Shown: positions 8,584-9,623 of the stretch, piece by piece
Position numbering within the stretch: the first letter of the stretch is position 1
How the letters are laid out: every line of letters begins with the position of its first letter
Assembly: GCA_030066985.1 (NCBI GenBank)
Contig: JASJAN010000006.1
Coordinates: 62,001 to 126,000, forward strand
DNA: 64,000 bases
Origin: Desulfobacterales bacterium
Lineage (GTDB): Bacteria; Desulfobacterota; Desulfobacteria; Desulfobacterales; JAHEIW01
Direction of reading: 5' to 3'
Position numbers and translations under genes: made by a program
Notes under the pieces: model-generated
The model's database searches: none
What the model was told of the DNA's origin: nothing
The model's input: only the letters and a program-made list of their open reading frames with translations

Positions 8584-8908
8584 ACGCCAAATTCTCCGGT
8601 GGGGATTATCCTTATGGAAAAACGATTTTCCTTTATGCTTAGCATAAAACGTGCCGAAATGACGGTTTTGTGAGAAATTAAATAATACTCAATGAATGCG
8701 GTCGCTCGGCCTGCGCACGAAAATCAAAAGTACCTTTGGTTTGTGGAAATTTTTCCATAATATCTGGGCAACACTTTTCCTATTATCAGCAAAATTGCGG
8801 AGGCTAAATATCAAGCGGGTCATATGGTTTAAAATGCGAGTTGGATCTATTCAGACGGATCAGGGCAGGAGAGGGGTGTTCTAGGTCAAATAACACTTCC
8901 CAATGGAC

Positions 8909-8987
8909 GAGGGTGATTCACGACGAATCACCCTCTGAGCATTGGGTGACAGTGTGTTAACACACTGTTGCCATAATTTATCGGCAA
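8909..8987. repeat. Cluster of three stem-loops in the 8.4-9.1 kb gap
   Basis: Three structured elements stand in a row. The first is a perfect 11-bp stem with a 5-base loop (8909-8919 with 8925-8935). The second is a perfect 20-bp palindrome, ACAGTGTGTTAACACACTGT (8949-8968). The third is a TTGCC/GGCAA stem (8968-8987) followed by a T-rich run, which would act as a plus-strand terminator. No coding frame with a credible start runs through them. They may be the end of a small RNA or a strong bidirectional terminator block downstream of the selenoprotein gene. Confidence 0.5.
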
Positions 8988-9097
8988 TTATTTTTTAAAC
9001 TTTACCGTTTTTGAGGCACCCGCCACTCGTCATACGGCATTTGGCTGACAGAGCGAAAGCTGGCTGCGTCTCATTTGTTTGATGCACATTTCAGATC

Positions 9098-9454
9098 TTA
9101 AAATGTGAACACTTTTGACTGTTTGGACAGTTCTATTAATTTAGGTGCGCCTGCAAGTTGTGCGGTCTCAATCAGCTCGTTTTCGCCGACCTGGCGATTT
9201 TGGGCACACGGGATTCAGACATAGAACGGAACTTCGTTTTTGACCAAATCGGCAAGATAGGTTGCCGCTTCATCACCAGTAGGGGCTGCCACAAAGTCCG
9301 CCATGCCCTGTTTCGCCAAAAATACCGCGTCATCGGTCAAGAAAATTGAAACCGCATTGCCATCCTCGCGAGCAACCTTTGCCAGCTGCAAGGTGCGGGT
9401 GACTCGGGTCGGATCTTCAAGGCCGCGCGTCAACACAAACAAAAATTTTTCCAT
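9098..9454 (-). CDS. DsrE-family selenoprotein (TGA codon 80 read as selenocysteine)
   Basis: Conventional reading stops at a TGA after 79 residues (ending VPFYV). In frame beyond it the sequence continues IPCAQNRQVGENELIETAQL and ends KVFTF at a TAA, giving a 118-residue DsrE/DsrF-like protein of normal family length. In DsrE-like homologues the TGA position is normally a cysteine of a CxPC motif; here it becomes UIPC (U80, C83). A hairpin UCGCC-AGGUC-GGCGA starts 18 bases after the TGA, as expected for a bacterial SECIS. The family handles sulfur/persulfide transfer, and selenocysteine would make it a redox or persulfide-active protein. The ATG is chosen for its AAGGAGGA binding site eight bases upstream; 21 residues of an earlier in-frame start are not family-like. 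Selenocysteine insertion requires SelB, not seen in this window. Confidence 0.85.
9183..9197 (-). promoter_or_regulatory. SECIS-like hairpin for the DsrE-family selenoprotein
   Basis: On the mRNA the bases form a perfect five-pair stem (UCGCC with GGCGA) and a five-base apical loop AGGUC. The loop begins 23 nucleotides after the UGA and has G at its second position, within the spacing and loop rules known for bacterial SECIS elements. The AGGU wording resembles the loop of the E. coli fdhF SECIS. Confidence 0.75.
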
Positions 9455-9623
9455 ATGTGATGTCCTCCTTTTAAGGTAAGCTGCGGTCAGACTACAAAAA
9501 TTTGACACCCTTTGCAATCGTGAGAGGGATTGCTATATTTAAAACGGTTTTTCGGTATTTGCAATTATCTCCGACTAAACGGGGTACAGGGTGTTTCATC
9601 AAAGACAGAAAAGGGCTTAAGGA

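Follow-up and report, generated by a model that had tools for sequence, protein, structure and literature searches.

A DsrE-family gene of a Desulfobacterales bacterium very probably encodes a selenoprotein across an in-frame TGA

Selenoproteins of the DsrE-like family, which carry a UxxC motif within the Pfam domain PF02635, have been in print since 2005. Published tables list them from the Sargasso Sea and GOS metagenomes and from Desulfovibrio vulgaris (PMC1088965, PMC2398784, PMC1794560), the D. vulgaris case being listed in 2006, and they appear again in the lists of PMC9312934 and PMC13188914. The latter, a 2026 review, describes the functions of DsrE-like and similar selenoproteins as largely uncharacterized. 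In DsrEFH, as stated in PMC3397948, Cys78 of DsrE binds sulfur and hands it to DsrC. An earlier note on DNA from a Desulfobacterales bacterium, made from the sequence alone, proposed a DsrE-family selenoprotein hidden behind an in-frame TGA and named marine metagenomes as the precedent for selenocysteine (Sec) in this family, a precedent that the published tables bear out. Here, we follow up that proposal in the window (the whole stretch of 64,000 nucleotides that was analysed) and in related genomes.

Read on the minus strand, the gene runs through 79 residues to a TGA at codon 80 and then through 38 further residues (IPCAQNR...KVFTF) to a TAA (Table 1). Read on the plus strand, 9098-9454 retains another stop even with TGA read through. 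The apparent truncation followed by 38 codons of family-typical sequence, as described in the earlier note, was confirmed by translation and by the PF02635 model, which covers residues 3-118 of the read-through product with 66 bits (gathering cut-off 22.7) and includes the UxxC motif in the form U-I-P-C. Automatic gene calling had been expected to stop at the TGA, and the mechanical ORF list does so with an ORF at 9215..9517. Ordinary ORF calling would end the gene at its active site, and the read-through corrects this. An AlphaFold2 model of the full-length protein, built from seven sequences with Cys substituted for Sec, shows the DsrE fold with a mean pLDDT of 95.7, and two of its helices and two of its strands come from residues beyond 80. 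The best Foldseek matches of this model are 3mc3 (TM 0.85), E. coli YchN (1jx7_A, TM 0.83), and DsrE of DsrEFH (2hy5_A, TM 0.78).

Table 1. Coordinates of the gene and its predicted features in the window.
Feature	Position	Strand	Details and basis
Putative DsrE-family selenoprotein gene	9098..9454	minus	118 residues, predicted Sec at 80; translation, PF02635, homologues, AlphaFold2 model
Start and stop of the gene	ATG 9454-9452, TAA 9100-9098	minus	translation
AAGGAGG, resembling a ribosome-binding site	9464..9470	minus	9 bases before ATG; read from sequence
In-frame TGA, predicted selenocysteine codon 80	9215..9217	minus	TGA shared by 54 other homologous loci, while 71 have Cys (n = 130 with the window's own)
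Cys83 codon, second residue of the UxxC pair	9206..9208	minus	Cys in 54/55 Sec rows and 71/71 Cys rows
Candidate bacterial SECIS hairpin, UCGCC stem / AGGUC loop / GGCGA stem	9183..9197	minus	comparative: pairing and covariation, Sec versus Cys rows

Searches for homologues gave matches in 37 of 58 near relatives, in 93 of 395 genomes of the phylum, and, at 1e-10, in 200 of 389 genomes of the order, and a named genome collection gave 6 loci. A total of 130 loci (L021 to L150), the window's own included, were examined, and counts among them are not frequencies because TGA-bearing loci were added on purpose. All 130 could be placed on the motif. Its first position is TGA in 55 loci (the window included) and a Cys codon in 71, while the remaining 4 begin with Cys and carry the TGA in place of the second Cys. 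Among the TGA rows, L077, L078, and L079 are fragments or broken genes. The usual forms of the motif are UIPC with Sec and CTPC with Cys, and the Cys homologues put C-T-P-C on U-I-P-C; the alignment with Cys-containing DsrE homologues that the earlier note had called for thus places the TGA on the first cysteine of CxPC, as it had proposed. The nearest named relative, L115, comes from a Desulfobacteraceae metagenome-assembled genome and is 76% identical to the window gene. Four plasmid records are 25-32% identical, and among 26 pattern matches on viral contigs none is a relative. Two loci are unusual at or near the motif. L080 (G004) has UVPS in place of UIPC, retaining the TGA with the second Cys changed to Ser, and L105 (G264:C2) has Cys at the usual site and an in-frame TGA about 29 codons earlier, which is either an error or a different reading.

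The hairpin downstream of the TGA overlaps the codons of N86 (last base), R87, Q88, V89, G90, and E91. It has the perfect stem and AGGUC loop that the earlier note had described, with its first paired base being the 18th after the TGA and its loop starting 22 bases after the UGA. The rules for bacterial SECIS elements as given in PMC13188914 call for a loop of 3-9 nt, a stem of 4-16 bp, a G in the first two loop places, a distance of 16-37 nt from the UGA, and an energy of -7.5 or lower. With a loop of 5 nt, a stem of 5 bp, a G in loop place 2, and a distance of 22 nt, the hairpin agrees with these rules, in line with the position and form that had been claimed for it, and the energy of -7.6 kcal/mol (40-base piece) lies just within the limit. 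This energy is not above chance when compared with shuffles (z = -0.23, with 67 of 200 shuffles as low). Window pieces of 61 and 48 bases fold otherwise than the hairpin, and 56 of 300 synonymous recodings of the 48-base piece fold as well. Folding energy was dropped as evidence for the SECIS because it is not significant. In addition, an Rfam search of the window gave no match at gathering score, and none of the three sub-threshold matches near the gene is a SECIS.

Comparison among loci gives strong evidence. The core set consists of 46 Sec rows in which R (C in L078) is followed by Q or H, then V or L, then G or D; another nine Sec rows, from more remote subfamilies (L094, L106 to L112, and L140), lie outside it and do not follow this pattern exactly. 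In 45 of the 46 core rows the last base of codon 87 stays paired with the middle base of codon 90, as U-A in 28 and C-G in 17. Asp at residue 90 goes with the codon CGT in the 28 U-A rows and Gly with a codon ending in C in the 17 C-G rows, L091 being the sole break, and the two states have switched at least three times on the tree. In the 45 distinct Sec rows, 96.0% of cells pair compared with 91.6% in shuffles, and 16 cells are changed on both sides compared with 6.0 in shuffles, none of 500 shuffles being as high on either measure. The covariation is confined to one of the five stem pairs, two pairs never varying, and in the same 45 rows neither the count of covarying pairs (1) nor that of further pair types (2) is above shuffles. 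When the 3' partners are slid by +2, the covariation score is 0.214 versus 0.190, yet only 49.3% of cells pair.

The Cys homologues provide the control. Of the 71 Cys rows, 68 were aligned (L105, L113, and L114 were left out), and in the same columns 43.3% of cells are paired among 67 distinct rows, a slight excess over their own shuffles in part of the measures, for which 23, 7, and 15 of 500 shuffles were as high. A 4-bp core with the loop GGU is found in 43 of 55 Sec rows versus 1 of 71 Cys rows. The evidence for the candidate SECIS is comparative and strong, and the Cys genes do not keep the hairpin. Covariation in the SECIS of the DsrE-like family was not found in the available portions of PMC1088965, PMC2398784, PMC1794560, PMC9312934, and PMC13188914. 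Since the SECIS overlaps protein codons, the hairpin ties the codon of Arg87 to the choice between Gly and Asp at residue 90.

The genome has the machinery for selenocysteine decoding. The search for selA, selB, selC, and selD suggested in the earlier note found them all, each over its curated or gathering cut-off: selA at 614 bits, selB at 376 bits, selD at 356 bits, and selC as a tRNA-Sec of 75 bits with the anticodon tca. The selD gene (L172, G000:C48) has an in-frame TGA of its own, in the stretch CGUAAK, and is likely a selenoprotein gene itself. Within the window, eight stretches are read-through candidates, one being the DsrE-family gene and the other seven having been judged by eye. 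The genome also has dsrA above cut-off, and the source organism is therefore probably a sulfate reducer. One other PF02635 match exists in the genome, at 24.4 bits and just over the cut-off. This match (L203, G000:C31:23965-24207) is a 102-residue ORF beside a 95-residue ORF on the same strand.

To compare gene neighbourhoods, the flanking ORFs of 27 stretches, several of them cut by contig ends, were clustered by similarity, and no conserved operon that would name a substrate was found among them. Families F7 (L151 and L158) and F8 (L152 and L153) recur only in pairs of the same genus, family F10 occurs in one further pair (L157 and L162) at different distances, and cluster F0 is broad and found at varied places. 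Downstream of the DsrE-family gene lie a perfect 20-base palindrome of two 10-base arms without spacer (8949-8968) and an 11-base inverted repeat with a 5-base loop (8909-8935), for which a terminator or a regulator site would fit. A tmRNA match beside the gene (8900-9026, minus strand) reaches 15.2 bits against a cut-off of 47 and is probably due to chance, because the genome's tmRNA (202.7 bits) is on another contig.

Judged from these sequence comparisons, the gene very probably encodes a full-length DsrE-family selenoprotein in which UGA is read as selenocysteine. In such a protein, the hairpin would recruit SelB bound to Sec-tRNA(Sec), selenocysteine would be inserted at codon 80 instead of termination, and translation would then complete the DsrE domain. 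Sec80 would replace the persulfide-carrying Cys78 of DsrE, with Cys83 following in UxxC. The gene adds a member to a selenoprotein family already known from related bacteria, and its novelty is lower because the D. vulgaris case is already in print.

What would such a protein do? A profile alignment puts Sec80 on Cys78 of 2hy5_A and on Cys78 of the C-K-T-C motif of YchN, and selenol/thiol redox chemistry at this position, where DsrE holds its persulfide, is the probable role. The protein may work on its own as a selenol/thiol redox protein, with sulfur or disulfide compounds as substrates, and we rate the chance that it works via a selenenyl-sulfide between Sec80 and Cys83 as somewhat better than even. 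Because the second Cys is kept, UxxC would make a redox pair rather than a one-cysteine carrier. The same alignment also speaks for another role, in which a real selenoprotein would chiefly carry sulfur (or selenium) in a DsrE/TusD-like relay instead of acting as a redox enzyme, holding a perthio or perseleno group on Sec80 and passing it on, for example to a DsrC-like partner. The match of the model to DsrE and the presence of dsrA in the genome fit this role as well. However, DsrE and TusD chains lack a second Cys at the place where all Sec rows but L080 keep one, as would be expected of a redox pair; the protein scores 16.3 bits against the TusD model (cut-off 89.25), and the genome's only other PF02635 match lies on another contig. 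Membership in DsrEFH or TusBCD was not found, as the protein falls short of the TusD equivalog cut-off and has no adjacent PF02635 partner. A carrier role is unlikely on this evidence, though it is the alternative with the most in its favour, and redox chemistry at Sec80 remains the preferred reading.

If the TGA were instead a true stop, the gene would encode a truncated protein of 79 residues or be decaying, and the similarity downstream would be a remnant. The mechanical ORF ends in just this way, and decay can be seen in the same genus, where three other genomes yielded no intact orthologue: L078 (G002) is a fragment of a window-type gene, L077 (G001) is a related gene with a broken frame, and the third genome gave no match. 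Perhaps the genus can do without the gene, or perhaps the assemblies are faulty at L077 and L078. The sequence beyond the TGA tells against a remnant. The window gene and L115 are 75% identical in amino acids before the TGA and 79% identical after it, and the part after it has 24 synonymous versus 10 non-synonymous differences. Among the eight relatives compared, identity is lower after the TGA than before it in five and higher in three. Their pN/pS values beyond the TGA are all below 0.5 (0.12 to 0.48), these ratios being rough because synonymous sites are near saturation. The values after versus before the TGA are 0.12 versus 0.21 for L115 and 0.17 versus 0.23 for L022, and the ratio is higher after it in L052 (0.28 versus 0.21) and L125 (0.48 versus 0.23); the six relatives other than L115 and L125 range from 0.17 to 0.30. 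By this comparison, purifying selection acts on the sequence beyond the TGA in each of the eight relatives, and with pN/pS this low the gene is therefore not expected to end there. The earlier note had named homologues ending at the same position as evidence that would count against it, and the homologues run past the site with conserved sequence. Furthermore, the same TGA occurs in genomes of many families together with conserved downstream sequence and the hairpin, and a model cut at residue 79 would lose the two strands and two helices. A true stop is highly improbable. Weakest of all, and close to negligible, is the idea that the genome decodes TGA throughout as a standard amino acid such as Trp, or that this TGA is a sequencing error for TGY. 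No support was found for it. TGA serves as an ordinary stop for 7 of the 40 large ORFs in the window, recurs at this one site across genomes of many families, and is aligned with Cys in 71 of 130 loci and never with Trp.

The family also allows the exchange between Sec and Cys to be followed. On a tree of 128 rows, built with the motif columns removed and with 55 of 125 inner branches unresolved, the Sec label changes 10 times, at least five of these changes being forced by well-supported branches; one of the changes on the best tree falls on the fragment L078, which has a very long branch. The clade of the window gene has 15 Sec rows, 3 Cys rows, and two changes. The Cys rows L122 (G460) and L126 (G544) group with the Sec row L124, which has the same genus code, with a support of 90 (the tool's mark being 95). 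Both retain the R-Q-V motif and have selB in their genomes, and L122 still has a pairing hairpin; by their position on the tree, they look like Sec-to-Cys reversions. According to PMC1794560, 15 Sec-to-Cys events occurred in four families, and PMC13188914 describes documented reversions as primarily limited to FdhA and SelD. With a SECIS that overlaps codons and several interchanges on the tree, the DsrE-like family offers a clean way to test what a SECIS costs the protein and why Sec and Cys are exchanged.

A further difference concerns the residue right after the site (codon 81 of the window gene, 9214-9212). Of the 55 Sec rows, 52 have I, V, L, or P there, and of the 71 Cys rows, 63 have T or K. 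Four Cys rows have one of I, V, and L instead, namely L113 and L114 (V), L122 (L), and L126 (I). On supported branches of the tree there are 5 independent pairs, of which 2 to 5 agree and 0 are opposed (median p 0.125), and the association is not established because the independent pairs are too few. A literature search on neighbouring residues listed nothing to the point. That this residue is tuned to the chalcogen at the redox-active position is rather less likely than not. If true, T or K would lower the pKa of Cys and be dispensable with Sec, and the neighbouring residue would keep a record of earlier Sec/Cys exchanges. Such tuning would fit together with Sec-to-Cys reversion outside FdhA and SelD and with the CxxU variants of the family.

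These variants are the four loci with Cys first (L095, L096, L097, and L148, in genomes G288, G387, G422, and G591), which read CKAU, with a TGA where CKAC relatives have their second Cys. L096, L097, and L148 show conserved sequence beyond this TGA, and selB is above cut-off in all four genomes. A phylum search made with the CKAU form found it in 3 of 395 genomes, and the fourth came from the order search. Judged by eye, L095 has a 9-bp stem after the TGA, and the predicted hairpins of L096, L097, and L148 have no obvious G-U loop. A CxxU form of DsrE-like selenoprotein was not found in the available portions of the published selenoprotein tables, which give UxxC.

Set beside the described systems, the window gene shares with DsrE (2hy5_A) the fold and an active Cys78 that aligns with Sec, and with TusD (2d1p_A) an active Cys aligned in the same way. 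Both of these proteins differ in having no second Cys in the motif and in working, by their structure titles, in hetero-hexamers, and the window protein lies below the TusD family cut-off. E. coli YchN (1jx7) has the same fold and a CxxC at 78 and 81 aligned with UxxC; it has Cys where the window gene has Sec, and the two are 24% identical. The likeness to the DsrE-like selenoprotein of Zhang and Gladyshev (reference WP_014524487.1) lies in PF02635 and UxxC. With the DsrE-like selenoproteins in the published tables, the window gene has in common the Pfam family, the UxxC motif, a candidate bacterial SECIS after the UGA, and a deltaproteobacterial setting.
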